A DNA stretch of 64,000 bases from Zobellia barbeyronii (GTDB lineage: Bacteria > Bacteroidota > Bacteroidia > Flavobacteriales > Flavobacteriaceae): positions 682,001 to 746,000 of the forward strand of contig NZ_JACATN010000003.1 in the NCBI RefSeq assembly GCF_018603515.1, read 5' to 3'. Under the pieces are notes generated by a model. It did not search any database. It saw only the letters and a program-made list of their open reading frames with translations, and was not told the DNA's origin. Position numbers and translations under genes: made by a program. Shown here piece after piece: positions 11,887 through 31,565 of this stretch (within the stretch, counting starts at the first letter, position 1; each line of letters opens with the position of its first letter).

Positions 11887-11946
11887 ATGATACTATTTTA
11901 GCAAATAACTACAACCTTAATTGCTTTTTATCACCTACATCATCAT

Positions 11947-13789: not shown

Positions 13790-16700
13790 ATGCAAAAGCG
13801 CATCTCGATACCGTTATTCTTTATCGGTTTTTTCCTCATCAGTTTTGCTCAAGCTCAAGTAAAAATAGGTGATAACCCCCAAGTTATTGACCCAAGCTCT
13901 ATTCTAGAACTCGAAAGTTCAGATAAGGTATTGGTCATTACCAGGGTAGATTCAGAACAAATGGCAACCATTGTACCCAACCGTGGTGCCTTGGTCTATA
14001 ACACTACAGCAGATTGTGTCTATTATTATGATGGTACAGCGTGGATTAGTATGTGTGAAGGTGTTGATGGCGGTGCTCTCACGGCTTTACCTATCGAAAA
14101 TGACGAAAGTACTATTGTAATTACCCCTACTGCGGATGGTAACAATATAGAAATAGCTCCTAATAGTATCTCTAGTGATCAAATATTAAATGGAGGTATT
14201 AATGGTGTAGATATACAAGATGGATCTATTGGCAGAGGAAAATTAGCTCCTAATGCCGTAGATAAGGCTAGAATTGCTGAAAATGCAGTTGGCCCATATG
14301 CCATTGATCGGGATAGTCTTGGTTTAAGCTTCTTTAACAATGATGCTGGTTTTATTACCGGTGCCAATATAGTAAGTGCCGATGCGGACAATGCTATTGT
14401 AATTGGAAGTGATGGCGGTGCTCTTTTTGATGCTACTACAATAGAAACTAGTATTGCGACCAATGCTGCTGCGATTGCTGCGGATAATGATAATAGTCCT
14501 ACCAACGAATTACAAACCTTAAACCTTACTGGATCCCAACTTTCTATAAGTGGTGTTCCTGGTTCTGTTAATTTGCCTACGGCAACTGGATCGGATACCA
14601 AAATAAATGCAGGAAACAATGTAACCATACAAGGAAATGGAACTACTGCCACTCCATATGTAATAAACGCGAACAACGAGATTGACGGAAGCGTTACGAA
14701 CGAATTACAAGACTTGGATTTCGATCCTGCTACAAACATATTAACAATAACCAATGCCGCAACTGCTACTAATGAAGTTAACCTTAGTGCTTTAGCTGGT
14801 GGCGGCGGTACAACTGCACAAATTAACTCAACTCCAAGTATAACAGTGGCAGGAAATGGCTCTGCACTAACACCTTATGAATTAACAGCTGTTGGTGGTG
14901 GAGGTACTGGAACAACAGAAGTAGCAGACGGAACAACTATTACAGGTGTTGGTACGGCTGGCGATCCTTTCAAAATAGAACCCTCAGCAACTACTGGAAG
15001 ATATTTAAGTACTGATGCCACTGGCGTTGTATGGTCTGATCTTCCACCAAGTGGAGCTTCTGCTCTTTTTGATGCGAATACGATTTCAGGTACTGGTCTT
15101 ATTGGCAATGAATATACAGTAGCTGATGACGCTATTAATTCTGCTAAAATAGAAGATGGTACTATTGACTTAGCTGACCTAAGTCCTATGGGAGCCACTG
15201 CAAATGGAGAAATTATACAATGGGATATTACTGCCAACGCTGGGGCAGGTGGCTGGACAATTGCTGATAATTCAGGAGGTCATACAGGAACTCCTAATTC
15301 AATCTTTTTTGCAGATGATAGTAATGCACCTACCGACGCTGGAAATGAATTTTTCTGGGATCCTAATGTTAGAGAAGAGAATGGCGGTAATTTTGGAGCT
15401 TTAGGTATTGGACTAGACGGAGGCGTAATGTCCACTAAAGTAAAAATTCATGTTGCCGAGCAATTAAATGGTAAACTTACGTACCCAATAGAGATGCAGA
15501 ATAGAACGAATCAGAACGAGAATAATTCAGCTGTAGGTATGTTGTTTTCTGTGGATTTAGATAATGCCCACGGTAAGGGTGCTTTATCTTACGAAAGAAC
15601 AGGTGCTTGGGGTGTGGGAGATTTTCATTTCCTTCAAAATACCGTTGCAACGGCAACCAATCCAACTCTTGCTGACAAAAGCTTTAGTATATTAAGTAAT
15701 AAAGACATACAACTATACGGAAACCTTATCGCCAGAAATGGCGCTGGTACGGACGGTCAAGTTTTGACTACAAACGCAGCCGGAGAAACTGTTTGGGGTA
15801 CTGGTGGAACTGGTACAAGCACTACGAACACTACATTTGAAACAACAGATACCGATGCGGACGGAATCGATGATTCACTTACCATAACTGATTCTGAAAG
15901 TGCAACTGTGTCTATACTCCTATCTGAAATCAACACAACTAACGCATCTTTTGCAGTTACGGATGCAGATGCAGATGGTACCGACGACTCGCTTACTATT
16001 ACAGATTCAGATGGTACGGAATTTTCTGTTCCCCTTGCCGATATTAGCAGTGGTGCAAACACTACTAACTCAACGTTCGAAATTACCGATACAGATTTAG
16101 ATGGTACTGATGATTCGATTACTATTACTGATTCAGATGGTACGGCATTGTCTATTTCCCTTGCAGATATTAGCAGTAATACTAACACCACTAACTCAAC
16201 GTTTGAAATTACCGATGCAGATGCAGATGGTACAGACGATTCGCTTACTATTACTGATTCAGATGGTACGGCGTTATCTGTTGCGCTTGCAGATATTGGA
16301 AGTGGTGCAAACACTACTAACTCAACGTTCGAAATTACCGATACAGATTTAGATGGTACTGATGATTCGATTACTATTACTGATTCAGATGGTACGGCAT
16401 TGTCTATTTCCCTTGCAGATATTAGCAGTAATACTAACACCACTAACTCAACGTTTGAAATTACCGATGCAGATGCAGATGGTACAGACGATTCGCTTAC
16501 TATTACTGATTCAGATGGTACGGCGTTATCTGTTGCGCTTGCAGATATTGGAAGTGGTGCAAACACTACTAACTCAACGTTCGAAATTACCGATACAGAT
16601 GCAGATGGTACTGACGATTCACTTACTATTACAGATTCAGATGGTACAGCATTGTCAGTTCCACTTGCGGATATTAGTGGACCAGTTTCTAGCGATGGAA

Positions 16701-17602
16701 TAACAATAACAGGAGACGGAGGTGCAACGACACCATTAACAGTAGCTCCTTTAGGAATTAATACCGCTCAATTAGCGGACGATGCTGTAACAGTAGGGAA
16801 AATTGCAGCAGGTGTTGACGGTGAAGTTTTAAGTACCAATGCAGCAGGTGAAACAGTTTGGGCTGTTCCAGAAAATCTGGAAAACGAAGATGTTACTTTA
16901 GCTGAAGATAGAACTATTAATCTTGGTGGAAATGATTTTGCTTTTGATGGCAGTGGAAATGTTGGTATTGGTACTGACACTCCTTCCAATAAATTAGAAG
17001 TTGATGGTGCAATAAGAGCTCAAGGAATTCTCAATTCTGATGGTACCGTAGGTGAACCTTCTTTCCGTTTTAATGGTGACACAAATACAGGTATGTATCA
17101 GGGGGGATTGGTAGACTACTTAAGATTCACCACAGGAGGAATTGAAGCAATGACAATTGACCCTTCTCAAAACGTAGGAATCGGTACAGCTACTCCAGCA
17201 CAAAAACTTCATGTGGCGGGTAGCATACAAGCTGATGGTAGTTTTATTTCCAACGACCCCGTAATCCAAATACCAGATTACGTTTTCCAAAAATATTTCT
17301 TAGGAAACTCAGAACTAAAAGAAAGCTATAACTTTAATACTCTTAGCGAAGTAGAAGCGTTCATTAAAAAGAACCACCACTTACCAGGGGTAACGTCTGC
17401 TATTAAAGCTAAAGAAGAAGGTCATTGGAACTTAAGTAATTCAAACTTGCAAAACCTTGAAAAAATAGAAGAACTTTTTCTTCACACTATTGAACAAGAA
17501 AAAGAAATCAATAGACTTAAAGCAGAAAAAGAAGCCATGGCAAACGAGTTGAAAACCATGAAAAACGACATTGAAGAAATCAAAGCGCTTCTAAATAAAT
17601 AA
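13790..17602 (+). CDS. Surface fibre protein 1, tail-fibre-like with calcium-type DxDxDG repeats and coiled-coil end
   Basis: The 1270-aa protein has a Sec signal (cleavage near AQA/Q, residue 22). Residues ~23-92 form a module also found in three other proteins here: VKIGDN, LELESSDKVLVITRV, GALVYNT, YYYDGTAWISMC. Residues ~93-680 are Ser/Thr/Asn-rich beta sequence of tail-fibre character. Residues 682-965 are seven 42-aa repeats with a DxDxDGxxD loop, a calcium-binding pattern. NVGIGTxTPxxKLxVxG strands, seen in many bacteroidotal fibre proteins, follow at ~1057-1150. The end has IPDYVFQKYF, HHLPGVTSA and a ~50-residue coiled coil. No T9SS sorting domain is present. The partner with such a domain starts 30 nt downstream. 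The likely role is a surface adhesin or filament, which is inference. Confidence 0.88.
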   Translation: MQKRISIPLFFIGFFLISFAQAQVKIGDNPQVIDPSSILELESSDKVLVITRVDSEQMATIVPNRGALVYNTTADCVYYYDGTAWISMCEGVDGGALTALPIENDESTIVITPTADGNNIEIAPNSISSDQILNGGINGVDIQDGSIGRGKLAPNAVDKARIAENAVGPYAIDRDSLGLSFFNNDAGFITGANIVSADADNAIVIGSDGGALFDATTIETSIATNAAAIAADNDNSPTNELQTLNLTGSQLSISGVPGSVNLPTATGSDTKINAGNNVTIQGNGTTATPYVINANNEIDGSVTNELQDLDFDPATNILTITNAATATNEVNLSALAGGGGTTAQINSTPSITVAGNGSALTPYELTAVGGGGTGTTEVADGTTITGVGTAGDPFKIEPSATTGRYLSTDATGVVWSDLPPSGASALFDANTISGTGLIGNEYTVADDAINSAKIEDGTIDLADLSPMGATANGEIIQWDITANAGAGGWTIADNSGGHTGTPNSIFFADDSNAPTDAGNEFFWDPNVREENGGNFGALGIGLDGGVMSTKVKIHVAEQLNGKLTYPIEMQNRTNQNENNSAVGMLFSVDLDNAHGKGALSYERTGAWGVGDFHFLQNTVATATNPTLADKSFSILSNKDIQLYGNLIARNGAGTDGQVLTTNAAGETVWGTGGTGTSTTNTTFETTDTDADGIDDSLTITDSESATVSILLSEINTTNASFAVTDADADGTDDSLTITDSDGTEFSVPLADISSGANTTNSTFEITDTDLDGTDDSITITDSDGTALSISLADISSNTNTTNSTFEITDADADGTDDSLTITDSDGTALSVALADIGSGANTTNSTFEITDTDLDGTDDSITITDSDGTALSISLADISSNTNTTNSTFEITDADADGTDDSLTITDSDGTALSVALADIGSGANTTNSTFEITDTDADGTDDSLTITDSDGTALSVPLADISGPVSSDGITITGDGGATTPLTVAPLGINTAQLADDAVTVGKIAAGVDGEVLSTNAAGETVWAVPENLENEDVTLAEDRTINLGGNDFAFDGSGNVGIGTDTPSNKLEVDGAIRAQGILNSDGTVGEPSFRFNGDTNTGMYQGGLVDYLRFTTGGIEAMTIDPSQNVGIGTATPAQKLHVAGSIQADGSFISNDPVIQIPDYVFQKYFLGNSELKESYNFNTLSEVEAFIKKNHHLPGVTSAIKAKEEGHWNLSNSNLQNLEKIEELFLHTIEQEKEINRLKAEKEAMANELKTMKNDIEEIKALLNK
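15833..16683 (+). repeat. Seven tandem 126-bp repeats (42 aa) with a perfect 252-bp duplication
   Basis: Seven units of the pattern NTTNSTFEITDxDxDGTDDS-(I/L)TITDSDGTALS-ADI follow one another. Units alternate between DTDLDG and DADADG forms. Units 3-4 (about 16101-16352) and 5-6 (about 16353-16604) appear identical base for base, which points to a recent duplication of a two-unit block. The first two units are the most divergent. Confidence 0.92.
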
Positions 17603-17632
17603 AAAGACCAACAGATTCAATCTGCATTGAAC

Positions 17633-18784
17633 ATGAAAAAACATCTATACATAGCGGCTCTAATTTTGGCATCGGGCGTACAGGCACAAGAAGCATTGTA
17701 CAATACCGGTAACCTCCGTATTCATGAAGGTGGTGTCATGGGCTTTCATACCGATCTAATTAATGATGGTAGTTTTGATGAAAATCTGGGCTTAGTCGGT
17801 TTCTACGGAGATAACCTTCGCAGCATTAGTGGTAGCTTTCCTGCTACGCTATATGATGTAGAGTTTGTAACAGGGTCAGGAACAGTTTTACAGAACGCTT
17901 TAAACGTATTGAACAATGCCAACTTTGTTACCGGAGATGTCATTACCGATCGGGCACAACCTGCTTTATCACTTAACTTCTTGGCAAATGCTTTTCCCAA
18001 TGGGCAAAGTAATATTAGTAAGGTAAACGGTTATGCGAGTGTAAACGATCAGCAGAATTTTATTTTCCCCGTAGGAGATGATGCGCAATTACGTCCGTTA
18101 ATATTAAGCTCAGAAGGCATTAATACTTTAGCCAGATGTGCCTATTTTATAGAAGACGCTAATAACCCTACTACCCTACCGGGTTCATATAATACAAATA
18201 ATAAAGATACCCAGATTGGCGATATCAGTATAATAGAATTTTGGCACTTAGAAGGTTCCGTACCTTCTAGTATACAACTCTCTTGGAACGAACGTAGCAA
18301 CATTGGCCTTCTAACTAGTGATGTTAACGAGGTTGCCATTGTAGGTTACAGTAAAGCTACCAATCGTTGGGAAAGCCTTAATGGTTCAGCACCTGCAGGA
18401 GATTTAAACGAAGGCGTTGTAGCTTCCGGTTCTTTTATTCCGGATGACTACGAAGTACTTACGTTTGCTGCCATGGGTGAACCTAGAGATTTTTTAAAAC
18501 TAGAAAACTATTTTGTTTCTCCTAACGGAGATGGCATTAATGATTTTCTTGAGATTCCAGAATTGGCGTTATCACCTAACAACTTTGTACAGATTTATAA
18601 CCGTGAGGGACTCAAGGTTTTTGAAAAACAAAACTACACAAATGAGTTCAACGGACTTTCCACACAAAATAATTTTGTCATAACAAGAGACCAAGGCCTT
18701 CCTTCTGGGGTGTATTTCTATATTGTTACACTAGACGATTTGGACCTTGAATTCCAAGGATTTTTATATTTGGCGAACGATTAA
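17633..18784 (+). CDS. Fibre partner 1 with T9SS type B sorting domain
   Basis: The ATG at 17633 gives 383 aa and a clean signal peptide (MKKHLYIAALILASGVQAQ); a TTG two codons upstream is less likely. Residues 20-280 form a domain shared only with the gene at 29429: NTGNLRIHEGGVMGF, DLINDGSFDENLGLVGFYG, SISGSFPATLYDVEF, QNFIFPVGDDAQLRPL, EFWHLEG and FIPDDYEVLTF. The last ~90 residues are a gliding-associated type B domain (FVSPNGDGINDFLEI, VQIYNREGLKVFE, NEFNGLS, GVYFYIVTLDD, GFLYL). It probably travels through the T9SS and sits on the surface with the fibre encoded 30 nt upstream, possibly as its anchor. The operon ends at the terminator just after the stop. Confidence 0.9.
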   Translation: MKKHLYIAALILASGVQAQEALYNTGNLRIHEGGVMGFHTDLINDGSFDENLGLVGFYGDNLRSISGSFPATLYDVEFVTGSGTVLQNALNVLNNANFVTGDVITDRAQPALSLNFLANAFPNGQSNISKVNGYASVNDQQNFIFPVGDDAQLRPLILSSEGINTLARCAYFIEDANNPTTLPGSYNTNNKDTQIGDISIIEFWHLEGSVPSSIQLSWNERSNIGLLTSDVNEVAIVGYSKATNRWESLNGSAPAGDLNEGVVASGSFIPDDYEVLTFAAMGEPRDFLKLENYFVSPNGDGINDFLEIPELALSPNNFVQIYNREGLKVFEKQNYTNEFNGLSTQNNFVITRDQGLPSGVYFYIVTLDDLDLEFQGFLYLAND

Positions 18785-18787
18785 TTA

Positions 18788-18818
18788 AAAAAGAGACCAC
18801 TTAGGTCTCTTTTTTTTT
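18788..18818 (+). terminator. Rho-independent terminator of fibre cassette 1
   Basis: Stem AAAGAGACC / GGTCTCTTT with a 5-nt loop (ACTTA) and an eight-T run, beginning 4 nt after the stop codon. Confidence 0.92.
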
Positions 18819-18936
18819 ACCGTTCATCGATCTTTTATACTTCATTTTACTTTTACAGAATTTACCTACAACTATTTTCCCTTGTAACACTACAACTTCA
18901 CTTCACTTCACAACAAATAGTGTGCATTTCATCGAT
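18818..18936 (+). promoter_or_regulatory. Two TTCRTCGAY motifs upstream of fibre cassette 2
   Basis: TACCGTTCATCGAT at 18818-18831 and TGCATTTCATCGAT at 18923-18936 lie in the same orientation, 105 nt apart (about ten helical turns), 290-400 nt before the fibre 2 ATG. The rest of the 440-nt gap (18785-19224) is AT-rich; TATTTTTTG near 19137-19145 is one base too long for an exact -7 element. No further ORF is supported. Confidence 0.4.
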
Positions 18937-19224
18937 CTGACTCTAACTTTACTTAAAAAAAGTTAAAGAGGCTCTGATTTATAATGACACGTCAGGGATT
19001 TACATTTTAAGTTTAAAACATATTTCTAAGCTTAAGCTGTAATTTAATTGGATTCTAAAATTGAACATTAGACTACTTGCCCCCACAAGGAACCCTTTCA
19101 CACGAATCTGAAATTTTCTTTAAAGCTATTTGAGCTTATTTTTTGAATGTCATTTTCAAAGAATAATTATAACTGACCTGCCATTTGTTCTCAAAAATAA
19201 ATGGTTATAAAATTGAAAATTAAT

Positions 19225-22200
19225 ATGAAAAACGTTCCCCTCGTCGTTCTCTTGTTTTTAACGCAACTCGCGTTTTCACAAGTAAAAATTGGAGATAACA
19301 TTAATCAGATTGATGCGGCCTCGTTAATGGAACTAGAAAGTTCCACTAAAGTATTTGTGGTTACGCGGGTTACCAATGCCCAAATGAACAGTATTACTCC
19401 ATTAAATGGGGCACTGGTCTTTAACACCGATCAGAATTGCCTGTTTCAATACAAAGGTAATATTTGGTCCAGTCTATGTGTAAACATTGCTGCTGGGGAA
19501 ACCATTACCGCCTTATTGGATAATAATGATGGTACGGTAACCTATACGAATGAAGCGGGTATTTCTGCTCTAATTTCAAAAGCAAACTTAGTAGACAATC
19601 TAGATGGTAGCTATACTTTTAGTAATGGTACTAACGCAATAAACTTTGTTGGCACGGACAACCAAAATTTGGAAAATGCCAATTTAGACGCTACTACATC
19701 TATTTTAAATATTGATATCGAGAACGGAAATAGTACCACTGCAAACCTTTCAGCTTTGGAAGAATCTGCAGATATCACTGCAGTTCAAGACGATGTTGAT
19801 GCAAATGAAGCGGATGCAGATTCCGCACTACTTGCTGAAATTAACAGAGCTACAGCTGCCGAAACAAATTTACAAGCTGATGTTGACACAAACGAAGCTG
19901 ACGCCGATGCTGCAATTTTAGCCGAAACAACTAGAGCTACTGCCGCTGAAACTACTATCCAGAATGATGTAAACCAAAATGAGGCAGATGCAGATGCAGC
20001 CATCGCTTTAAAAGAAGATACCGCAAACAAATCGACTGACGTTACCCTTGCCGATGCTACCGATACCAAGTTCCCAACGGAACTTGCCGTTAAGACCTAT
20101 GTGGACGGACAAATTGCCGCAACTGCAGATGACGATATTACTGCAGCGACTATAGATGCTGCCAGTGTTTTGAAAATTGATGAAGGTACTACCTCGGTTA
20201 CCGTTGACCTGTCCGATTTGGAAGAATCTGCAGACATTACTGCCGAAACAAATAGAGCAACTGCTGCCGAAACCGCTATTCAGAATGATGTTGACCAGAA
20301 CGAAGCAGATGCCGATGCTGCAATTTTAGCCGAAACAACCAGAGCTACTGCCGCTGAAACTGCTATCCAGAATGATGTAAATCAAAATGAGGCAGATGCA
20401 GATGCTGCGATCGCATTAAAAGAAGATACCGCAAACAAGTCGACCGACATTACCCTTGCCGACGCTACCGATACCAAGTTCCCAACGGAACTTGCCGTAA
20501 AAACCTATGTGGACGGACAAATTGCCGCCACTGCCGATGACGATATTACAGCAGCGACTATAGATGCTGCAAGTGTTTTGAAAATTGACGAAGGTGCTAC
20601 TTCAGTTACCGTTGACCTTTCCGATTTGGAAGAATCTGCCGACATTATTGCTGTTCAAGACGATGTTGATGCAAATGAAGCCGACGCTGATGCAGCAATA
20701 CTCGCAGAAACAAACAGAGCAACTGCTGCCGAAACTGCTATCCAGAATGATGTTGACCAGAACGAAGCTGACGCCGATGCTGCAATTTTAGCAGAAGCAA
20801 CTAGAGCTACTGCTGCTGAAACTGTTATCCAAAATGATGTAAACCAAAATGAAGCAGATGCCGATGCTGCCATCTCTCTTAAAGAAGATGCCGCAAACAA
20901 ATCGACTGACGTTACCCTTGCCGATGCTACCGATACCAAGTTCCCAACGGAACTTGCCGTTAAGACCTATGTGGACGGACAAATTGCCGCAACTGCAGAT
21001 GACGATATTACAGCTGCGACTATCGATGCTGCCAGCTTATTAAAAATAGATGAAGGTGCTACTTCCGTAACCGTTGACCTTTCCGATTTGGAAGAATCTG
21101 CAGATATTATTGCTGTTCAAGACGATGTTGATGCAAATGAAGCCGACGCTGATGCCGCAATACTGGCAGAAACAAACAGAGCAACTGCTGCCGAAACTGC
21201 TATCCAGAATGATGTTGACCAGAACGAAGCTGACGCCGATGCTGCAATTTTAGCCGAAACAACTAGAGCTACTGCCGCTGAAACTGCTATCCAGAATGAT
21301 GTAAATCAAAACGAAGCGGACGCGGACGCGGCCATCTCATTAAAAGAAGATACCGCAAACAAGTCAACCGACGTTACCCTTGCCGACCCAACCGATACAA
21401 AGTTCCCAACAGAATTGGCCGTAAAAACTTATGTGGACGGACAAATTGCCGCAACTGCAGATGACGATATTACTGCAGCGACTATCGATGCTGCCAGTGT
21501 TTTGAAAATTGACGAAGGTGCTACCTCGGTTACCGTTGACCTTTCCGATTTGGAAGAATCTGCCGACATTACTGCCGTTCAAGACGATGTTGATGCAAAT
21601 GAAGCCGACGCTGATGCAGCAATACTCGCAGAAACAAACAGAGCAACTGCTGCCGAAACTGCTATCCAGAATGATGTAAATCAAAACGAAGCAGATGCCG
21701 ATGCTGCCATCGCTTTAAAGGAAGATGCCGCAAACAAATCGACAGATGTAACCCTTGCCGATGCTACCGATACCAAGTTCCCAACGGAACTTGCAGTTAA
21801 GACCTATGTGGACGGACAAATTGCCGCAACTGCAGATGACGATATTACTGCAGCGACTATAGATGCCGCCAGTGTTTTGAAAATTGACGAAGGTGCTACT
21901 TCCATTACCGTTGACCTTTCTGATTTGGAAGAGTCCGCAGATATCACTGCCGTTCAAAATGATGTGGACCAGAACGAAGCTGACGCCGATGCTGCAATTT
22001 TAGCGGAAACAACTAGAGCTACTGCTGCTGAAACTGCTATTCAGAATGATGTAAACCAAAATGAAGCAGATGCAGATGCTGCCATCGCTTTAAAAGAAGA
22101 TGCCGCAAACAAATCGACTGACGTAACTCTTGCCGACCCAACCGATACCAAGTTCCCAACGGAACTTGCCGTTAAGACCTATGTGGACGGACAAATTGCC

Positions 22201-25200
22201 GCCACTGCAGATGACGATATTACTGCAGCGACTATAGATGCTGCCAGCGTTTTGAAAATTGACGAAGGTGCTACCTCCGTTACCGTTGACCTTTCCGATT
22301 TGGAAGAATCTGCGGACATTACTGCCGAAACAAATAGAGCAACTGCTGCCGAAACCGCTATTCAGAATGATGTTGACCAAAACGAAGCTGACGCCGATGC
22401 TGCAATTTTAGCCGAAACAACCAGAGCTACTGCTGCTGAAACTGCTATCCAAAATGATGTAAATCAAAATGAGGCTGATGCAGATGCAGCAATCGCATTA
22501 AAAGAAGATGCCGCAAACAAATCGACAGATGTTACTCTTGCCGACCCAACCGATACCAAGTTCCCAACGGAACTTGCCGTTAAGACCTATGTGGACGGAC
22601 AAATTGCCGCAACTGCAGATGACGATATTACTGCAGCGACTATAGATGCCGCCAGTGTTTTGAAAATTGACGAAGGTGCTACCTCCGTTACCGTTGACCT
22701 TTCCGATTTGGAAGAATCTGCCGACATTACTGCCGTTCAAAACGATGTAGACCAAAACGAGTCCGACGCGGACACCGCTATTACTGCAGTTCAAGACGAT
22801 GTAGACCAAAACGAAACCGATGCTGATGCAGCAATACTTGCAGAAACCAACAGGGCAACAGCAGCTGAAACCGCTATCCAGAATGATGTAAATCAAAATG
22901 AGGCAGATGCCGATGCTGCCATCGCATTAAAAGAAGATGCCGCAAACAAATCGACTGACATTACCCTTGCCGACGCTACCGATACCAAGTTCCCAACGGA
23001 ACTTGCCGTCAAGACCTATGTGGACGGACAAATTGCCGCTACCGCAGATGACGATATTACAGCAGCGACTATAGATGCTGCCAGTGTTTTGAAAATTGAT
23101 GAAGGTGCTACTTCCGTTACCGTTGACCTTTCCGATTTGGAAGAATCTGCAGATATAATTGCCGTTCAAGACGATGTTGACCAAAACGAGTCCGACGCGG
23201 ACGCTGCAATACTCGCAGAAACAAACAGAGCAACTGCTGCCGAAACTGCTATCCAGAATGATGTTGACCAGAACGAAGCTGACGCCGATGCTGCAATTTT
23301 AGCCGAAACAACTAGAGCAACTGCCGCTGAAACTGCTATCCAGAATGATGTAAATCAAAATGAGGCAGATGCAGACGCAGCCATCGCTTTAAAAGAAGAT
23401 ACCGCAAACAAGTCGACCGACATTACCCTTGCCGATGCTACCGATACCAAGTTCCCAACGGAACTTGCCGTTAAGACCTATGTGGACGGACAAATTGCCG
23501 CTACCGCCGATGACGATATTACAGCTGCTACTATAGATGCTGCAAGTGTTTTGAAAATTGACGAAGGTGCTACTTCAGTTACCGTTGACCTTTCCGCTTT
23601 GGAAGAATCTGCCGACATTATTGCTGTTCAAGACGATGTTGATGCAAATGAAGCCGACGCTGATGCAGCAATACTCGCAGAAACAAACAGAGCAACTGCT
23701 TCCGAAACTGCTATCCAGAATGATGTTAACCAGAACGAAGCTGACGCCGATGCTGCAATTTTAGCCGAAACAACTAGAGCTACTGCTGCTGAAACTGCTA
23801 TCCAAAATGATGTAAATCAAAATGAGGCAGATGCAGACGCAGCCATCGCTTTAAAAGAAGATGCCGCAAACAAATCAACCGACGTTACCCTTGCCGACCC
23901 AACCGATACCAAGTTCCCAACAGAACTTGCCGTAAAAACTTATGTGGACGGACAAATTGCCGCTACCGCAGATGACGATATTACAGCAGCGACTATAGAT
24001 GCTGCCAGTGTTTTGAAAATTGACGAAGGTGCTACTTCAGTTACCGTTGACCTTTCCGATTTGGAAGAATCTGCCGACATTACTGCCGTTCAAGACGATG
24101 TGGACCAAAACGAGTCCGACGCGGACGCTGCAATACTCGCAGAAACAAACAGAGCAACTGCTGCCGAAACTGCTATCCAGAATGATGTTGACCAGAACGA
24201 AGTTGACGCCGATGCTGCAATTTTAGCCGAAACAACTAGAGCTACTGCTGCTGAAACTGTTATCCAAAATGATGTAAACCAAAATGAAGCAGATGCCGAT
24301 GCTGCCATCGCTCTTAAAGAAGATGCCGCAAATAAATCTACTGACGTTACCCTTGCCGATGCTACCGATACCAAGTTCCCAACGGAACTTGCCGTTAAGA
24401 CCTATGTGGACGGACAAATAGCAGCAACTGCCGATGACGATATTACAGCTGCGACTATAGATGCTGCCAGTGTTTTGAAAATTGATGAAGGCGCTACTTC
24501 AGTTACAGTTGACCTTTCAGCTTTGGAAGAGTCTGCCGATATCACTGCAGTTCAAAATGATGTTGACACAAACGAGGCTGACGCAGATGCAGCTATACTC
24601 GCAGAAACAAACAGAGCAACTGCTGCCGAAACCGCTATTCAGAATGATGTTGACCAGAACGAAGCTGACGCCGATGCCGCTATCGCGTTAAAAGAAAATG
24701 CCGCCAATAAATCAACTGATGCAACTCTTTCAGATGCTACCAATACTAAGTTCCCAACAGCACTTGCCGTTAAAACTTATATTGATGGACAAATAACACT
24801 CTCAGCTGATGATGATATTACAGGAGCTTCTATAGATGCTGCCAGTCTTTTAAAAATAGATGAAGGTGCCACCTCAGTAACCGTTGACCTTTCCGCTTTG
24901 GAAGAGTCCGACGATATTACTGCCGTTCAAGACGATGTTGACTTGAACGAAGCCGATGCCGATGTCGCCATCGCATTAAAAGAAGATGCCGCAAACAAAT
25001 CGACTGACGTAACTCTTGCCGATGTTACGGACACAAAGTTCCCAACAGAACTTGCCGTTAAGACTTATGTAGACGGACAAATTACGGCTACTGCCGATGA
25101 CGATATTACTGGAGTAACCATAAATACATCAAGTATATTAACAATTAGTGAAGGTGGAACTTCAGTAACAGCTAACCTTTCAGCTTTGGAAGAATCAGCT

Positions 25201-27204
25201 GATATTACCGCAGTTCAGAATGATGTAAATCAAAATGAAGCCGATGCCGATGCCGCTATTTTAGCGGAACAACTAAGAGCTACTGCAGCAGAAACCACGC
25301 TTCAAAACAATATCAACTTAAAAGAAGATGCCAATAATAAATCTACGGACGTAAATCTTGCTGACGCCTCTAATACGAAGTTCCCAACTGAACTTGCTGT
25401 AAAAACGTATGTTGACAGTCAAGTTGGAAGTGTAAATAGCCTCACAAACAGCAATATTTTTGTTGGAGATAATAGTAATATTGCACAAGGAGTTGCGATG
25501 AGCGGAGACGCCACCCTATCCAACACCGGTGCTTTAACTATTGAAACCGATGCAGTTACCGCTACCAAAATAAATGTTGATGTTGCAGGAAATGGTTTAT
25601 CACAGAATGCTACAACTGGAGCACTAGAAGTTGATGCCTTAGGTATTTCAGATTTAGTTACGGGGAATAAGATTGCAACCATAACGCAACCTGATGCCTC
25701 TACAGTGGTTATTAATGAAACTATAACCTCATTTGCAGAAGTTTCTGGAAATAGAAGTATTCTACGCTTTACTAATGAGGCAAATGGAACAGATGATGTT
25801 ACCAGTGTAGTAAGAAGTGTAAACGGTGTTGTGCCGGCCGCAAATGGTAATGTTGCCGTAATCCTTTCAAGTACCTCAACAGGTCTTGAAGCAGATTTAC
25901 CGACAATGGGATTAGATTCAGATATTTATATAGTAACCGGAGAATCTGGCTTAACGGCAGATAGAAATGGAGTTGCCTTTATTTATGATGATGTTACAGG
26001 ATGGCAAGAAGTAACTACCGACCTTTCTACAAACGATGCTCGGTATTTGAATGTAAACGGAGATGCCATGGCAGGCACATTGTCTATGGCCAGTCATCCT
26101 TTAACCAATTTATTAGACCCTTCCAACGCGCAAGATGCAGCTACTAAAAATTATGTTGATGGTTTAGCTACTGGAGATATAACTTCTACAGACTTAACGG
26201 TTACCAACGGAACTGATTCTGCTTTTAAGGATGTCACCTTAACCATTGCCAACGGTGCCGTAACTCCCTTAAAAATAGCTGCGGGAGCCAATAACCAATC
26301 ACTCGTTACGGACAATACAGGAACAGTTTCTTGGATAGATTCTAGCACTTTTAACCACTCTGGAACGACAGGTTCTGTTTTCTTTGCAGGTGCTACAGGA
26401 ACTCCTAGTGAAGATAACGACCAACTATTTTGGGATAGCACACTTAACAGGTTAGGCATTGGTACCGATACCCCTACTCATAAACTACAAGTTAGCGGAC
26501 AAGTTAGGGCTACTTCATTTGCCAATGCAGACGGTACTGCCAATGCTCCTTCTTATCGCTTTAATAGTGATGCGGACATGGGTATGTACAGACTAGCCGC
26601 CAATCAATTAGGCTTCTCCACCAACGGAACAAGTGCTATGTTAATTGATGCCTCTCAAAATGTAGGTATTGGTACAGTTACACCAGACGAAAGTCTTCAT
26701 ATAGCTAATAACATGAGACTAGATGGTAGTTTTGAAGACAAGGATGGCGAAGCTGGAACAGCTGGCCAAGTATTGTCATCAACAGCAACTGGAACAGATT
26801 GGATAGACGCTCCTTCAGCAGACCCAAAGATTAGCACTGATGCCGGAAATAGCGTGACCGCAGGTACAGACGCAGGAGTTTTCTATAACAGCCCTATCAA
26901 AGCTTTTGGTAAAATTTCTTCAGCGGGAACGGTTATTAAATCAACTCCCGGAGTTACTGTCACAAAACTGGCTGGTTTAGGTCACTACCAAGTTACTTTG
27001 GCCGCAGGTACAACAGCAGATTCAGATTACATTATTCAACTATCACAACCAGGAAGAGGTGGTGCTGGAAATGATGACCCAGGAATATCATACAGTAGCC
27101 AAACCACTACAACATTTGACGTAATCATAGGAGATAACGATAATGGAGGTACGGACCGTACTAGATTTGATTCTGAATTTATGTTCACCATTTTAGACCT
27201 GTAA
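19225..27204 (+). CDS. Giant surface fibre protein 2 with long acidic repeat stalk
   Basis: The ATG at 19225 puts the signal peptide (MKNVPLVVLLFLTQLAFSQ) at the start; an ATG eight codons upstream would spoil it. The product is 2659 aa. Residues ~19-95 are the shared module (VKIGDNINQIDAASLMELES, TRVTNAQM, GALVFNT, FQYKGNIWSSLC). Residues ~179-2067 are a stalk of thirteen repeats plus a degenerate fourteenth, rich in Ala, Asp, Glu and Thr, with predicted coiled-coil segments (AETNRATAAETAIQNDVDQ) alternating with KFPTELAVKTYVDGQI, a motif family typical of phage-tail-like fibres. After the stalk come beta-rich regions with NVGIGTxTP strands and a compact C-terminal domain (~2531-2659) rich in Gly, Thr and Asp. 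No sorting domain is visible. It heads a five-gene operon and the next ATG is 4 nt away. Confidence 0.9.
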   Translation: MKNVPLVVLLFLTQLAFSQVKIGDNINQIDAASLMELESSTKVFVVTRVTNAQMNSITPLNGALVFNTDQNCLFQYKGNIWSSLCVNIAAGETITALLDNNDGTVTYTNEAGISALISKANLVDNLDGSYTFSNGTNAINFVGTDNQNLENANLDATTSILNIDIENGNSTTANLSALEESADITAVQDDVDANEADADSALLAEINRATAAETNLQADVDTNEADADAAILAETTRATAAETTIQNDVNQNEADADAAIALKEDTANKSTDVTLADATDTKFPTELAVKTYVDGQIAATADDDITAATIDAASVLKIDEGTTSVTVDLSDLEESADITAETNRATAAETAIQNDVDQNEADADAAILAETTRATAAETAIQNDVNQNEADADAAIALKEDTANKSTDITLADATDTKFPTELAVKTYVDGQIAATADDDITAATIDAASVLKIDEGATSVTVDLSDLEESADIIAVQDDVDANEADADAAILAETNRATAAETAIQNDVDQNEADADAAILAEATRATAAETVIQNDVNQNEADADAAISLKEDAANKSTDVTLADATDTKFPTELAVKTYVDGQIAATADDDITAATIDAASLLKIDEGATSVTVDLSDLEESADIIAVQDDVDANEADADAAILAETNRATAAETAIQNDVDQNEADADAAILAETTRATAAETAIQNDVNQNEADADAAISLKEDTANKSTDVTLADPTDTKFPTELAVKTYVDGQIAATADDDITAATIDAASVLKIDEGATSVTVDLSDLEESADITAVQDDVDANEADADAAILAETNRATAAETAIQNDVNQNEADADAAIALKEDAANKSTDVTLADATDTKFPTELAVKTYVDGQIAATADDDITAATIDAASVLKIDEGATSITVDLSDLEESADITAVQNDVDQNEADADAAILAETTRATAAETAIQNDVNQNEADADAAIALKEDAANKSTDVTLADPTDTKFPTELAVKTYVDGQIAATADDDITAATIDAASVLKIDEGATSVTVDLSDLEESADITAETNRATAAETAIQNDVDQNEADADAAILAETTRATAAETAIQNDVNQNEADADAAIALKEDAANKSTDVTLADPTDTKFPTELAVKTYVDGQIAATADDDITAATIDAASVLKIDEGATSVTVDLSDLEESADITAVQNDVDQNESDADTAITAVQDDVDQNETDADAAILAETNRATAAETAIQNDVNQNEADADAAIALKEDAANKSTDITLADATDTKFPTELAVKTYVDGQIAATADDDITAATIDAASVLKIDEGATSVTVDLSDLEESADIIAVQDDVDQNESDADAAILAETNRATAAETAIQNDVDQNEADADAAILAETTRATAAETAIQNDVNQNEADADAAIALKEDTANKSTDITLADATDTKFPTELAVKTYVDGQIAATADDDITAATIDAASVLKIDEGATSVTVDLSALEESADIIAVQDDVDANEADADAAILAETNRATASETAIQNDVNQNEADADAAILAETTRATAAETAIQNDVNQNEADADAAIALKEDAANKSTDVTLADPTDTKFPTELAVKTYVDGQIAATADDDITAATIDAASVLKIDEGATSVTVDLSDLEESADITAVQDDVDQNESDADAAILAETNRATAAETAIQNDVDQNEVDADAAILAETTRATAAETVIQNDVNQNEADADAAIALKEDAANKSTDVTLADATDTKFPTELAVKTYVDGQIAATADDDITAATIDAASVLKIDEGATSVTVDLSALEESADITAVQNDVDTNEADADAAILAETNRATAAETAIQNDVDQNEADADAAIALKENAANKSTDATLSDATNTKFPTALAVKTYIDGQITLSADDDITGASIDAASLLKIDEGATSVTVDLSALEESDDITAVQDDVDLNEADADVAIALKEDAANKSTDVTLADVTDTKFPTELAVKTYVDGQITATADDDITGVTINTSSILTISEGGTSVTANLSALEESADITAVQNDVNQNEADADAAILAEQLRATAAETTLQNNINLKEDANNKSTDVNLADASNTKFPTELAVKTYVDSQVGSVNSLTNSNIFVGDNSNIAQGVAMSGDATLSNTGALTIETDAVTATKINVDVAGNGLSQNATTGALEVDALGISDLVTGNKIATITQPDASTVVINETITSFAEVSGNRSILRFTNEANGTDDVTSVVRSVNGVVPAANGNVAVILSSTSTGLEADLPTMGLDSDIYIVTGESGLTADRNGVAFIYDDVTGWQEVTTDLSTNDARYLNVNGDAMAGTLSMASHPLTNLLDPSNAQDAATKNYVDGLATGDITSTDLTVTNGTDSAFKDVTLTIANGAVTPLKIAAGANNQSLVTDNTGTVSWIDSSTFNHSGTTGSVFFAGATGTPSEDNDQLFWDSTLNRLGIGTDTPTHKLQVSGQVRATSFANADGTANAPSYRFNSDADMGMYRLAANQLGFSTNGTSAMLIDASQNVGIGTVTPDESLHIANNMRLDGSFEDKDGEAGTAGQVLSSTATGTDWIDAPSADPKISTDAGNSVTAGTDAGVFYNSPIKAFGKISSAGTVIKSTPGVTVTKLAGLGHYQVTLAAGTTADSDYIIQLSQPGRGGAGNDDPGISYSSQTTTTFDVIIGDNDNGGTDRTRFDSEFMFTILDL
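19759..25425 (+). repeat. Tandem coding repeats of 288-462 bp forming the fibre 2 stalk
   Basis: Thirteen units, each from EESADI to KIDEGATSVTVDLS, plus a partial fourteenth. Full units are 154 codons (462 bp; for example the start points near 23558 and 24020 are exactly one unit apart). Shorter units mainly lack one or two copies of a 29-codon subunit (AETNRATAAETAIQNDVDQ + NEADADAAIL). Units 1-11 are nearly identical; units 12-14 diverge strongly toward the distal end. Confidence 0.93.
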
Positions 27205-27208
27205 GCAA

Positions 27209-28369
27209 ATGAAGAAATTACTATATATAGTTTTGCTTTTAGTGATAAAAGTAACATGGGCCCAAGCCCCTACTGCTAATGAACTAGTAAGTATACACTC
27301 TGCTACCCTAGCAGAAATTACTGCAATGGCAAGTCCTATTGAAGGTTCTCTAATCTACAATACTAATGATAAATTTTTATACCAATTTAATGGTACTCTT
27401 TGGCAGAAACTGACGCCTGAGGGCAATGAAACAAAAATTGTTGCTAACGATAATGTTAGTATAAGCGGAACCGGAACAACGGCAGACCCATATGTAGTTT
27501 CTTCCATTAAATCTACATTTACCACCAATCCAGACGGATCTTTTACTTTTTCCAATGGTATTGACCCTGATGTGAATTTTAGCCCTACTGTACCCGGCAA
27601 CACACCTATTGTTTCAAATTCTAATGCCGGAATAGGTAACTGTTCTCAATTTGGACTGAGTGAAACCAGAGACTTAATCATTCAAGGTGCTTACTTTGAC
27701 GGTGCATCTACAGTTGCAATTACAGGACAAACAGTAAATTCTGTAGTAATCAATAGTTCTTCTCAAATAACTGCTAATGTAACCACTGGAGGAGCTTATG
27801 GAAATTTTGATATTTCCGTTACCAATAATGCAGGTTTAAGCACCTTAGCTGGTGGCTTTGTATTACAAGCATCATCCCCACTTACAACTAATAGTATAAC
27901 CGCTACAGATATGGTCCTTACAGGCTCAATGACCTATGATGGTAACATCCTGACTAAAACTGCAACAGCAGGTTGGAACGCGCAAGGTTACTCACTTAAC
28001 CATGAAATAAGTAATATAAAAGGTGGTAGATTAGATTTTACACCCAACCAAACAAATCTATTAGCGATGATAGGGCTAAGTTATGACCCTTCTTCAAGTG
28101 CCTCCTACCCTAACCTTAATTATGCCATGTATATAGTTTCAAATTCTCAAATACAGATTCGAGAAAGTGGGGCCAGTCTAGGTTATGTTTCAAGTTACGC
28201 AGCTGGAGATGTTCTAAGTATTGATGTGGATTGTTTGGGTAATGTAACTTACTTACGAAATGACAACATTATTTTCACTTCCTCTAGAAAAGCTGTGAGC
28301 CCATTATATTTTGATTCTTCTTTCTACCATATAGGTATGAAAATCTCAAACATACTAATGAAATACTAA
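27209..28369 (+). CDS. Exported protein with shared fibre module, IPT/TIG-like and lectin-like domains
   Basis: The 386-aa protein starts 4 nt after the fibre 2 stop. A signal peptide (LLYIVLLLVIKVTWAQ) precedes a reduced version of the shared module (HSATLAEITAM, EGSLIYNTNDKFLYQFNGTLWQKL). Residues ~140-225 look like an IPT/TIG immunoglobulin-type fold (LIIQGAYFDGASTVAITGQ, GGAYGNFDISVTNNAG). Residues ~250-386 resemble a concanavalin-like jelly roll seen in bacteroidotal surface proteins: GWNAQGYS, GGRLDFTP, LLAMIGLS, NYAMYIV, IQIRESG, YAAGDVLSIDV, VTYLRNDNIIFTS. A glycan-binding or tip role on the fibre is plausible but is inference. The stop codon shares one base with the following 55-codon ORF. 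Confidence 0.85.
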   Translation: MKKLLYIVLLLVIKVTWAQAPTANELVSIHSATLAEITAMASPIEGSLIYNTNDKFLYQFNGTLWQKLTPEGNETKIVANDNVSISGTGTTADPYVVSSIKSTFTTNPDGSFTFSNGIDPDVNFSPTVPGNTPIVSNSNAGIGNCSQFGLSETRDLIIQGAYFDGASTVAITGQTVNSVVINSSSQITANVTTGGAYGNFDISVTNNAGLSTLAGGFVLQASSPLTTNSITATDMVLTGSMTYDGNILTKTATAGWNAQGYSLNHEISNIKGGRLDFTPNQTNLLAMIGLSYDPSSSASYPNLNYAMYIVSNSQIQIRESGASLGYVSSYAAGDVLSIDVDCLGNVTYLRNDNIIFTSSRKAVSPLYFDSSFYHIGMKISNILMKY

Positions 28370-28536
28370 TGACAATAGAAAAACGTATATTCTTTATTTT
28401 CAATAAATTAGGTATCCACGCTGATAGAAATCAAGATGCTATTCTTTATTTTCTTAAACCTACTTACACCAAATCGCTTCAATCAGCAACAATAAATATA
28501 TCCCCCACTAAACCATTAATTGCAAACCAATTATGA
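28369..28536 (+). CDS. Small 55-aa ORF coupled to both neighbours, function unknown
   Basis: ATG at 28369 shares its A with the TAA of the preceding gene (TAATG), and the TGA at 28534-28536 overlaps the next ATG by four bases (ATGA). The frame is open for exactly 55 codons, so it fills what would otherwise be a 163-nt gap in a tight operon. The product begins MTIEKRIFFIFNKLGI and continues with polar residues; it lacks a convincing signal peptide, cysteines or known motifs. Two TTCTTTATTTTC-like stretches recur within it. It could be a real small protein or a translational bridge; without homologues this remains uncertain. Confidence 0.42.
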   Translation: MTIEKRIFFIFNKLGIHADRNQDAILYFLKPTYTKSLQSATINISPTKPLIANQL

Positions 28537-29417
28537 AACGATTAATAGTAATGTCTTTATCACTTATTGCACTATACCCTAGCGAGGTCGTAGCGCAAGT
28601 AGATGGCAACTATTTACTGGGGCTTACTAATGCAACAACCTTAGAAATGAATACCGGTATAAATCCTGTAGCCGGCTCACTTTTATATAATACCGACGAG
28701 GAAAAAATGTACTTGAACACTGCTTCAGGTTTTAAAAAAATACCTTCAATAGATACAAATTCAGTAGATTTCTGGGGAGCTACAGGAAATACTGGCTCTA
28801 ATGCTACCACTCATTTTTTAGGAACTACGGACCTTCAGGATTTCGTGATGAAAACGGATAATAGTGAAAGAATTAGAATATCCTCTACCGGAAACGTAGG
28901 TATAAATAATCCTACGCCTAACGCTCAAATAGATATTGAAAGTGCAGGTGTGCCTTTACGAATTCAACCCAGCACCACTACTCCAACCGGAACCGAAAGT
29001 GGGCAAATTTTTATGGGAAACGATGGTATTCTATATGCTTACGACGGATCTAGAACAAAATGGCTGAGCGTTGACCGTACTATGGTAGGTTGGGGAGTCA
29101 ACAATCCTGCAACCACATTAGCCTACATGAGACAGTTTAATGGTGCAGAATCTGATAAAAACGGTTGGCGTATGCTTAGAGATGGTACAATTACAGGAAT
29201 TACGGTCCAAACTGAAAACGCCAACACCTGGACATTGGAAATCAGAAAAAATGATGGCCTTATACCAATAGCTGTTTTAGCAATTGCAGCTACAGAAGGT
29301 GGCCAAGATGACACTATAAATATCGATTTTAACCAAGGTGATTTTTTACAAGCTTATTGTAATGGAACTGCTGTGGAATATCCAGAAACTTTAATTGAAA
29401 TAGCCTGGAGAAAGTAA
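28533..29417 (+). CDS. Exported protein with shared fibre module and C-terminal head-like domain
   Basis: The 294-aa protein has a signal peptide (LIVMSLSLIALYPSEVVAQ) and a short form of the shared module (NATTLEMNTGINPVAGSLLYNTD). The middle has fibre-type strands (RIRISSTGNVGINNPTPNAQIDI) and YDGSRTKWLSVD. Residues ~180-294 make a compact beta domain ending WTLEIRKN, INIDFNQGDFLQAYCNG and LIEIAWRK, reminiscent of trimeric jelly-roll heads at the ends of collagen-like or tail-fibre proteins. It may be a minor fibre or tip subunit. It lies between the lectin-like protein and the type B partner, which starts 11 nt later. Confidence 0.82.
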   Translation: MKRLIVMSLSLIALYPSEVVAQVDGNYLLGLTNATTLEMNTGINPVAGSLLYNTDEEKMYLNTASGFKKIPSIDTNSVDFWGATGNTGSNATTHFLGTTDLQDFVMKTDNSERIRISSTGNVGINNPTPNAQIDIESAGVPLRIQPSTTTPTGTESGQIFMGNDGILYAYDGSRTKWLSVDRTMVGWGVNNPATTLAYMRQFNGAESDKNGWRMLRDGTITGITVQTENANTWTLEIRKNDGLIPIAVLAIAATEGGQDDTINIDFNQGDFLQAYCNGTAVEYPETLIEIAWRK

Positions 29418-29428
29418 CCCTAAAAACG

Positions 29429-30586
29429 ATGAAGAAATACGCAATTATTATTGGTAGCCTAGTCTTGAGCATGTATAGTAATAACATGGTCGCACAAGAC
29501 TCATTTCATAATTTTGGAAACATGAAAATGCATGAAGATGCACAGATTGGTTTTTACCAAAATTTAATCAATGACGGCTCCTTTGATGATAATAAAGGTC
29601 TAGCCGGTTTTTATAATGAAGACATAGCCTATATAAGCGGAGCTTTCAGGCCCGTTTTTAAGGACTTAGAAATAGTTGTAGATAAAGACCTTATTTTAGA
29701 AGTTGGTATAGGAATAAAGAACAACAGCAATTTTATTTCGGGAGACCTGGTTACCCCCAAATTTTTAATTGACACGAACATTGAATATATTAATGATGCC
29801 TTTTATAATGGTGATACTAATTTTACCAAAGTAGATGGATATTCAGCTGTAAGAAACCAACAAGATTTTATTTTCCCCATAGGTCATTTTGATAAATTAA
29901 GACCTTTAAAACTATCTTCCAACCAAATTAACGAGAATGCCAAGTCGGCTTACTTTTTCGAAGACCCTAATCACCCATCTACCTTTCATACTACGTTTAA
30001 TACAGAAAATAGAACTGATATTTTAGTATCCATAAGCAATGAAGAGTTTTGGGATTTAGACACAGAGGTATCTTCCAAAGTTACCTTAGGATGGGATACG
30101 GACAGTAGTCTATCTACTTTTATGGATAAAGTTGAAAACTTAAGAGTGGTTGGTTGGCATACAGAACACAGCATTTGGGAGGATTTAGGTAATACCGCCA
30201 TGGAAGGAGATTTTAATCAAGGTGAAATAACATCGGACACTTTTACACCGGACGACTATACTATTATCACTTTTGGTGGAAGCCTTAGTAGACAAAGTGT
30301 TGATTTGGGTAATTACCTAATGACACCAAACGGGGATGGAAAAGCTGATTTTCTTGTTTTGGATGCCGTTTCTTTATCGCCTAACAATCAACTTACCATT
30401 TACAACAGATGGGGACGGGCCGTTTACGAAGCTACTAACTACGACAATAGCTTTGGAGGTACAGCCAACGTTAGTAGTGTAGTTGCTACCTCAAAAAAAC
30501 TACCTGCTGGAGTTTATTTTTATATTATTGATTTGAAAGATATTGATGTTAAACATCAAGGATTCTTGTATATAAATCAAGAGTAA
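29429..30586 (+). CDS. Fibre partner 2 with T9SS type B sorting domain, paralogue of partner 1
   Basis: At 385 aa this matches partner 1 in length and order. Shared features are NFGNMKMHEDAQIGF, NLINDGSFDDNKGLAGFYN, YISGAFRPVFKDLEI, QQDFIFPIGHFDKLRPL, EEFWDLD and FTPDDYTIITFGG. The type B domain at the end has YLMTPNGDGKADFLVL, LTIYNRWGRAVYE, GVYFYIIDLKD and GFLYI. A signal peptide is present (MKKYAIIIGSLVLSMYSNNMVAQ). The protein is the last of the fibre 2 operon. By the family, it is exported by the T9SS and held at the surface. The pairing of a fibre with such a partner in both cassettes implies a functional link. Confidence 0.9.
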   Translation: MKKYAIIIGSLVLSMYSNNMVAQDSFHNFGNMKMHEDAQIGFYQNLINDGSFDDNKGLAGFYNEDIAYISGAFRPVFKDLEIVVDKDLILEVGIGIKNNSNFISGDLVTPKFLIDTNIEYINDAFYNGDTNFTKVDGYSAVRNQQDFIFPIGHFDKLRPLKLSSNQINENAKSAYFFEDPNHPSTFHTTFNTENRTDILVSISNEEFWDLDTEVSSKVTLGWDTDSSLSTFMDKVENLRVVGWHTEHSIWEDLGNTAMEGDFNQGEITSDTFTPDDYTIITFGGSLSRQSVDLGNYLMTPNGDGKADFLVLDAVSLSPNNQLTIYNRWGRAVYEATNYDNSFGGTANVSSVVATSKKLPAGVYFYIIDLKDIDVKHQGFLYINQE

Positions 30587-30784
30587 TCCTCTAAATAAAC
30601 AAAGCTACTTTACACCGGGCCAACTGGTTTTTTTTACTATAAACAAGCACATTGAATAAAAAGCTTCCTTTAAAATATAGTACTCGTTTAATTTATTTTA
30701 AAGATACAAGCCTACTTTACAAGATTTGTACCTTCATAAACGTTATCAATATAACCACAATCTATTCTTGGCATCAAATTTGAA

Positions 30785-30792: not shown

Positions 30793-30827
30793 CTTAGATT
30801 GTGAACACGATTAAATTCAACAATGGT

Positions 30828-31565
30828 ATGATGGAACGACGAGCATTCATAAAAAAAAGTGGTGTTGCTGGCCTTGCTTTGGCAGCTTTACCCAATTTGG
30901 CATTTTCTAAAGATTTTGAATATAGCATCTTAGAGTTAATGGGTAAAACCGATATTAAACTCTACGGAGAAGGTATTAATTTACGTAAAGAGGCACATGA
31001 TGCGTTTGTAGAAATGAAGAAGGCTGCATATAGCGATGGTATTAATTTAAAAGTAGTATCTAGCTATCGTAATTTTGAACGTCAACGTTCTATTTGGGAA
31101 CGTAAATACTTAAAATACACAGACGATAATGGCATGACTCCTCAAAATGCCATTGATAAAATTATAGAATACTCTACCATACCGGGAACTAGTCGTCATC
31201 ATTGGGGAACCGATATTGATATTGTTGACGGAAACAGAAATGTAAAAGGAGATATGCTCGTACCTTCCAAATTCTCAGAAGGAGAACCCTATGGCGATTT
31301 TAAGAAGTGGATGGATGAAAATTCAAAAAGTTTTGATTTTCATTTAGTATATACAGATGTACCTGGCCGCAGAGGATTTAAATATGAGCCATGGCATTTT
31401 AGCTACGCACCTATTTCTGTGCCTATGTTGACTGAATTTCGCAGAAAAAACATCATGCAATTGCTAAAAGACGAAGATTTCTACGGTAGTGAACACTTCA
31501 CAGAAGGCTTCTTAACCAATTATATACAAGACAATATCCTAGATATCAATACAGAACTTCTGTAA
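30828..31565 (+). CDS. M15 family D-Ala-D-Ala carboxypeptidase-like metallopeptidase with Tat signal
   Basis: The chosen ATG leaves a twin-arginine signal right at the N-terminus (MERRAFIKKSG followed by GLALAALPNLAFS); a GTG nine codons upstream is possible. The 245-aa protein has the M15 zinc site: SRHHWGTDIDIV (HxxxxxxD) and EPWHFSYAP for the second His. SSYRNFERQRSIW is the usual upstream substrate-pocket motif. Such enzymes (DacY/VanY-like) trim peptidoglycan stem peptides in the periplasm. Export in folded form by Tat would fit metal loading in the cytoplasm. TatA is encoded at 7713-8051. An M48 peptidase follows 37 nt later. Confidence 0.92.
   Translation: MMERRAFIKKSGVAGLALAALPNLAFSKDFEYSILELMGKTDIKLYGEGINLRKEAHDAFVEMKKAAYSDGINLKVVSSYRNFERQRSIWERKYLKYTDDNGMTPQNAIDKIIEYSTIPGTSRHHWGTDIDIVDGNRNVKGDMLVPSKFSEGEPYGDFKKWMDENSKSFDFHLVYTDVPGRRGFKYEPWHFSYAPISVPMLTEFRRKNIMQLLKDEDFYGSEHFTEGFLTNYIQDNILDINTELL

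Follow-up and report, generated by a model that had tools for sequence, protein, structure and literature searches.

How are long adhesive fibres held on a bacterial surface when no sorting domain is found on the fibres themselves? This question is raised by two adjacent operons, at positions 13790-18784 and 19201-30586 of a 64,000-nucleotide stretch (hereafter the window) of the 4.98-Mb genome of Zobellia barbeyronii. In both, genes for fibre-type proteins are followed by a gene for a partner protein, which consists of a front domain of about 260 residues and a type B sorting domain of the type IX secretion system (T9SS). An earlier note on this DNA had described two adjacent cassettes, each closed by a partner of the same family, and all of the open reading frames (ORFs) lie as it had described. 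The pairing of fibre and partner is real, conserved and coherent. From sequence comparisons we consider it somewhat probable that each cassette is a display unit for adhesive fibres resembling the MAT fibres of Bdellovibrio, with the partner serving as a dedicated surface adaptor that would hold fibres lacking a C-terminal sorting domain (CTD) on an outer-membrane barrel of the PorP type. As the pairing recurs in many related bacteria, such mounting of surface fibres may be widespread.

Composition of the two cassettes

Cassette 1 consists of fibre 1 and partner 1; cassette 2 contains the giant fibre 2, two short fibre-type proteins and then partner 2. Their features (aa, amino acids) are as follows.

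13790..17602, + strand: fibre 1 (1270 aa), with signal peptide, head, repeats, MAT-like shaft and coiled-coil-like C-terminus
13853..14059, + strand: class I head domain of fibre 1
15932..16677, + strand: tandem repeat in fibre 1 (126 bases, 5.9 copies)
17633..18784, + strand: partner 1 (383 aa from the ATG at 17633; 385 aa from the TTG at 17627)
17684..18481, + strand: front domain of partner 1
18497..18772, + strand: type B sorting domain (CHU_C) of partner 1 (PF13585, 86 bits)
18787..18815, + strand: strong terminator-like hairpin with T-run behind cassette 1 (-14.8 kcal/mol, z -6.19)
19225..27204, + strand: fibre 2 (2659 aa if translation begins at the second ATG, 19225; 2667 aa from 19201)
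19276..19482, + strand: class I head domain of fibre 2
19878..25256, + strand: tandem repeats in fibre 2 (unit length 87 to 462 bases)
27209..28369, + strand: fibre-type protein of 386 aa, with a short head and a lectin-like C-terminal domain
28369..28536, + strand: ORF of 55 aa, probably not a gene
28533..29417, + strand: short MAT-like fibre (294 aa)
29429..30586, + strand: partner 2 (385 aa)
29486..30283, + strand: front domain of partner 2
30311..30574, + strand: type B sorting domain (CHU_C) of partner 2 (PF13585, 87.7 bits)
30614..30628, + strand: terminator-like site behind cassette 2

With a hairpin after the first cassette and a terminator-like site after the second, the cassettes look like two transcription units; a promoter scan was uninformative, returning 45 sites against 44.9 expected.

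The two partners are 42% identical to each other, and the type B sorting domain that the earlier note had assigned to both is borne out by PF13585 scores well over the cut-off of 27 bits. By the TIGR04131 model (cut-off 35 bits) partner 2 scores 37.5 bits and partner 1, at 34.7 bits, falls just below the threshold. The putative signal peptide of the partners looks typical by eye, and the AF2 model has a helix at residues 2-17, behind which the predicted protein is all-beta with high confidence (pLDDT 93.9, pTM 0.76). A Foldseek search returned no solved fold for the partner at E<=0.001. The front domain received no Pfam or NCBIfam assignment, and its PHROG matches all have E>=0.07. It is found twice in the Z. 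barbeyronii genome, both times in the window.

Each of the four fibre-type proteins (one in cassette 1, three in cassette 2) starts with a signal peptide, as judged by eye, followed by the head, which has the full class I form in fibres 1 and 2 and a shorter version in the proteins of 386 and 294 residues. A profile built on the head drew no PDB match at E<=1. At the sequence level the likeness to Bdellovibrio MAT fibres lies in the solved shaft of Bd2133 (PDB 8ond), which is matched by fibre 1 (E=9.9e-5, residues 1111-1150), by the 294-residue protein (E=6.1e-5) and weakly by fibre 2 (E=0.012, residues 2468-2522 of the 2667-residue form); the 386-residue protein does not match this shaft. Given its shaft match and a PHROG tail-fibre match at E=1.1e-7, the product of 28533-29417, which had been described as a head-like protein, is instead a short fibre. 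The 55-residue ORF had been counted as a member of cassette 2, and its only relative among the ORFs of the loci searched is itself.

The lectin-like character attributed earlier to the 386-residue protein holds for its C-terminal domain, which folds like beta-sandwiches of the SPRY/ConA type, and the protein begins with a fibre-type head as well. Its model is good over the last 155 or so residues (block pLDDT 71-92) and poor over the remainder (mean 63.2). The best structural match of the C-terminal domain in the PDB is a levan utilisome subunit (E=4.1e-7), followed by SPRY domains and carbohydrate recognition domains, and the domain also resembles phage structural proteins, such as one of Cellulophaga phage phi13:1 (E=4.8e-12).

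Type B CTDs are absent from all 206 distinct head ORFs with complete C-termini, and in none of the 93 fibre C-termini scanned, out of 179, did a T9SS sorting model match at E<=0.001. In the Pfam scan Peptidase_S74 was absent from the window fibres; a tip of this family is present in one relative (locus L132). Pfam matches to LolA, Zn_protease, DASH_Hsk3 and Imm33 lay below the cut-offs, mostly inside repeats, and were discarded. A PADLOC scan of five proteins for anti-phage defence gave no match. Among phage records, the class I head gave three weak hits, all of them in very large genomes (LR756501.1, LR756503.1 and AP018399.1; 385 and 735 kb; E=8e-5 to 5e-3).

Fibre-partner linkage in related bacteria

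Matches to the front domain occur in 79 of 299 genomes of the family (E<=1e-5) and, in a sample of the phylum, in 60 of 395 genomes. Flanking DNA was fetched for family matches with E<1e-40 and for seven weaker ones, other weaker matches being excluded; together with the window, the resulting 100 regions contain 101 partners of the short form found in the window, two of them the window's own, after one partner ORF cut at a locus end and one duplicate were dropped. According to the earlier note, a partner family usually found without a fibre gene would have spoken against its proposal. This was not the case: in these neighbourhoods a head-bearing fibre lies in the operon of 76 of the 101 short partners, the upstream ORF of 20 is truncated where the contig or locus stops, and for five no head was found. 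The head is on the ORF directly upstream in 68 cases, is recognised there by a looser variant-head motif in six, and lies further up the operon in two. The gap between fibre and partner has a median of 3 nucleotides and is at most 50 in 91 of 98. Contig ends are found within 3 kb upstream of 29 short partners and within 3 kb downstream of 12, an excess that is expected if repetitive fibre genes break assemblies.

The association also holds between genomes. Among 26 genomes picked by hand, mostly for their few contigs, strong class I heads (E<1e-25) occur in all 14 with short partners, in none of the nine without a partner and in none of the three with long partners only, and 22 of the 25 strong heads sit at partner loci.

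Long partners, of about 405-450 residues, occur in operons with the order fibre(s), partner, PorP, PorE-like. A scan of named genomes showed that at least 79 loci with long partners exist, and the counts given here refer to the best 79, which hold 80 long partners in 13 named genera, mostly Flavobacterium. PorP lies downstream of 69 of the 80, accompanied by a PorE-like gene in 65; a head fibre lies no more than 6 kb upstream of 47, and for eight the upstream ORF is cut by an end. At one locus (L203) the TIGR03519 model upholds the PorP assignment (308 bits, cut-off 90.55); the PorE-like gene there matches the T9SS_PorE and CHU_0125_OmpA models, in each case below the cut-off. A complete operon is found in Flavobacterium johnsoniae CI04 (locus L300), with a fibre of 661 residues, an ORF of 72, a partner of 418, a PorP of 305 and a PorE-like protein of 646.

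Head class tracks partner class. When heads are classified by simple motifs of our own making, those beside short partners are class I in 62 cases, class II in none and unclassified in 14, and those beside long partners are class II in 33, class I in seven and unclassified in 21. Both pairings stand side by side in one genome only (G211). Within the short class, covariation was measured on 62 cassettes from 45 genomes, all having a class I head no shorter than about 50 residues. Head distances correlate with front-domain distances across genomes (r=0.506) and also in the 16 genomes that carry more than one cassette (r=0.517), where swaps within genomes gave a mean of 0.114 and none of 2000 was as high. 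The fibres are mosaic, the tips being their most diverse part and the heads conserved: mean similarity is 0.631 for heads and 0.117 for tips, and the rank correlation with the front domain is 0.410 and 0.037, respectively.

The strict cassette is seen mainly in Flavobacteriaceae. Among relatives beyond the family, two loci (L236 and L238) have a type B partner with two head fibres upstream, and at another (L226) front-bearing and head-bearing ORFs alternate. At three further loci a front-bearing protein beside head proteins matches a type A sorting model (L220, 25.4 bits; L221, 20.3 bits; L239, 37.5 bits; cut-off 23, so that L221 lies below the threshold), and here it looks as if the export tag had been swapped and the pairing kept.

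Large, otherwise different proteins that appear to be secreted share a C-terminal tail of the type ITNPM..K. This tail is found on 22 of 3610 distinct ORFs of the fetched loci (L213, L215, L270, L271, L282, L283, L289, L290, L293-L298, L307, L308, L311, L312, L314, L315, L318 and L319), all 22 directly upstream of a partner, which is PorP-linked in 21 cases; a slightly wider motif gives 23 ORFs. A second tail, MRHGKYF...PMEFG, occurs on four different proteins (ORFs of 360, 509 and 777 residues at L167 and of 2782 residues at L169), two of which lie directly upstream of a long partner. Both motifs were counted in the loci where they were first noticed. The ITNPM..K tail is a candidate docking tail for the partner.

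A model for fibre display and its alternatives

In the display model, fibre chains would enter the periplasm by way of the signal peptides seen in their sequences. The CTD of the partner would carry it through SprA onto a barrel of the PorP/SprF family, as we infer from other type B proteins, and the front domain may hold the conserved fibre head, as the linkage, the matching classes and the covariation suggest; shaft and variable tip would thereby point outward. In operons with a long partner, genes beside it would supply the barrel and also a PorE-like protein that presumably binds peptidoglycan, and for the short form of the window the barrel would be encoded elsewhere. Exchange of tips would change what the cell adheres to. 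The model allows either of two routes, in which the fibre would cross the outer membrane on the partner or would exit otherwise and be caught at the surface. The earlier proposal that the partner supplies an export signal or anchor which the fibre lacks is consistent with all genomic tests made, namely the linkage, the lack of sorting domains in fibres and the PorP and PorE-like genes beside long partners.

Several observations weigh against this model. By the automatic rule, 25 of the 80 long partners have no head fibre; in our own reading of the output, 16 of these 25 are directly preceded by a protein with an ITNPM-type tail. The five short partners for which no head was found comprise two with an upstream ORF in which none was recognised and three with no upstream ORF within 500 nucleotides, one of which lies 265 bases from a contig end and another of which (in G143) has a fibre downstream instead. 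Class I heads without a partner occur twice in the Z. barbeyronii genome and once in G236, and the window partners have no linked PorP or PorE gene. At ten loci (L222-L225, L229-L231, L233, L234 and L237) a front-like stretch lies inside a larger protein, and none of the neighbours displayed is a head protein; this relates the front domain to a wider module. Finally, head-partner covariation is unspecific to the front domain. The head covaries as strongly with the partner CTD (r=0.532, none of 2000 swaps as high), and in a similarity-based comparison the values were 0.580 for the head, 0.415 for the 70 residues behind it and 0.157 for the tip, with none of 1000 swaps as high for each, so that part of the signal is accounted for by cassettes being inherited whole.

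The two partnerless head genes of the Z. barbeyronii genome (C35:40185 and C11:190616; L322:715-4449 and L323:4051-4884) have no partner in the 8.5 kb examined. One sits in a three-gene set with variant-head proteins and the other stands alone; these heads may use a partner encoded elsewhere.

The T9SS setting of the genome bears on where a barrel might come from. SprA, the T9SS translocon, is encoded, and there are 25 CHU_C matches and 16 matches to the PorP/SprF family, 12 of the 16 PorP genes lying beside a CHU_C gene and four elsewhere in the genome. By comparison of coordinates, only the two partners among the 25 CHU_C matches are near a class I head. In the window itself a PorP/SprF gene (PF11751) at 441-1343 lies just behind a CHU_C match at about 146-418, an ordinary pair of type B substrate and shuttle.

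A more far-reaching version of the display model treats the fibre as cargo of the partner: its head would dock on the partner while still in the periplasm, and one type B CTD, that of the partner, would bring both chains through SprA. Co-export of this kind is possible, if rather doubtful. It would fit signal-peptide-bearing fibres in which no sorting domain was found, the nearly constant placement of fibre and partner in one operon, and the three loci with a type A-like domain, where the T9SS tag stays and its type changes; however, fibres of up to 3839 residues would have to pass along with the partner, and the open-access papers searched contained no case of a CTD protein carrying cargo without a CTD. 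Bdellovibrio, moreover, has MAT fibres on its surface and is not known to use a T9SS, so another route can bring fibres of this kind to a surface.

If, instead, partner and fibres were separate surface adhesins that are co-regulated without contact, the fibres would need some other means of export and anchoring, since no type B CTD or sorting-model match was found in them. The tracking of partner class by head class and the lack of strong class I heads in the partner-less genomes examined also speak against such independence. Its attractions are that unit inheritance accounts for part of the covariation, that some heads occur without a partner and that front-like modules are present in large proteins elsewhere; on balance we regard it as unlikely. 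That the cassettes are a prophage or tailocin remnant is highly improbable, because the PHROG tail-fibre and virion matches and the phage-like lectin domain are set against signal peptides (by eye), the absence of phage proteins among 12 neighbouring proteins scanned (a subset of the window ORFs), a head with three weak matches in 50,697 phage records, and the recurrence of the cassette in many genera.

The display model could be extended, tentatively and with more doubt than confidence, to a partner that is a reusable adaptor for T9SS export and docking, in which one type B protein would export and hold several CTD-less cargoes, MAT-like fibres through the head and other large adhesins through C-terminal tails (ITNPM..K, MRHGKYF). 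If true, this would amount to adaptor-based T9SS secretion of several proteins and would explain the purpose of many type B-PorP-PorE operons.

The cassettes are flanked by genes of other kinds. Three adjoining CarboxypepD_reg-like genes, two of them below the cut-off, lie at 11065-13459 on the - strand, divergent from cassette 1, and the ORF at 30801-31565 on the + strand has a VanY-type D-Ala-D-Ala carboxypeptidase domain and matches a twin-arginine signal model.

Relation to known surface systems

Each kind of component is already known; the combination was not found in searches of open-access papers. Trimeric autotransporter adhesins with the peptidoglycan-bound TpgA join a trimeric fibre to a peptidoglycan-associated companion, a similar plan with a different export route. 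Identity of the window fibres with trimeric autotransporters was rejected, as the Pfam scan of the four fibre-type proteins found no C-terminal YadA-type membrane anchor.

The MAT fibres of Bdellovibrio likewise have a signal peptide, a conserved N-terminal domain, a long shaft and variable tips of the S74 or other types, and the surface element bound by the N-terminal domain is there said to await identification (PMC10769870). The cassettes differ from that account in that a dedicated partner gene follows the fibre (PMC10769870).

The remaining components resemble those of type B secretion. One study has PorP/SprF-like barrels collecting and holding type B proteins and PorE able to tie the complex to peptidoglycan, and its authors speculate on a cap role for PG1035 (PMC9143113). 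In another, Fjoh_3952, which has genes of the PorP and PorE types beside it, does not move on the cell surface (PMC12618676). By gene set, the long class is like PG1035-PorP-PorE (PMC9143113) and Fjoh_3952/3951/3950 (PMC12618676); the available parts of these papers mention no fibre gene with either operon, whereas here CTD-less fibres precede the type B protein. Orphan type B proteins can share one barrel, as the same paper describes for Fjoh_1123, 1720 and 4934 with Fjoh_1677 (PMC12618676); the window partners likewise have no linked PorP/SprF, and differ from the orphan substrates described there by the front domain and the fibre partner. The gliding adhesin SprB is kept at the cell surface by its type B CTD, which sits on SprF, a barrel of the PorP/SprF family; adhesin and CTD there form one chain (PMC12635249) and here are separate genes.

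For the small type B T9SS proteins that PorP and PorE hold, whose function is unclear, the conserved order of fibre, adaptor, barrel and anchor suggests a role. The same arrangement suggests a model for the surface holder of MAT fibres in Bdellovibrio. Adhesins of this class, which carry no sorting domain, would be overlooked in lists of T9SS surface proteins compiled by looking for such domains. Since T9SS genetics has been published for Flavobacterium johnsoniae and one strain of this species has a complete operon, the idea is directly testable.

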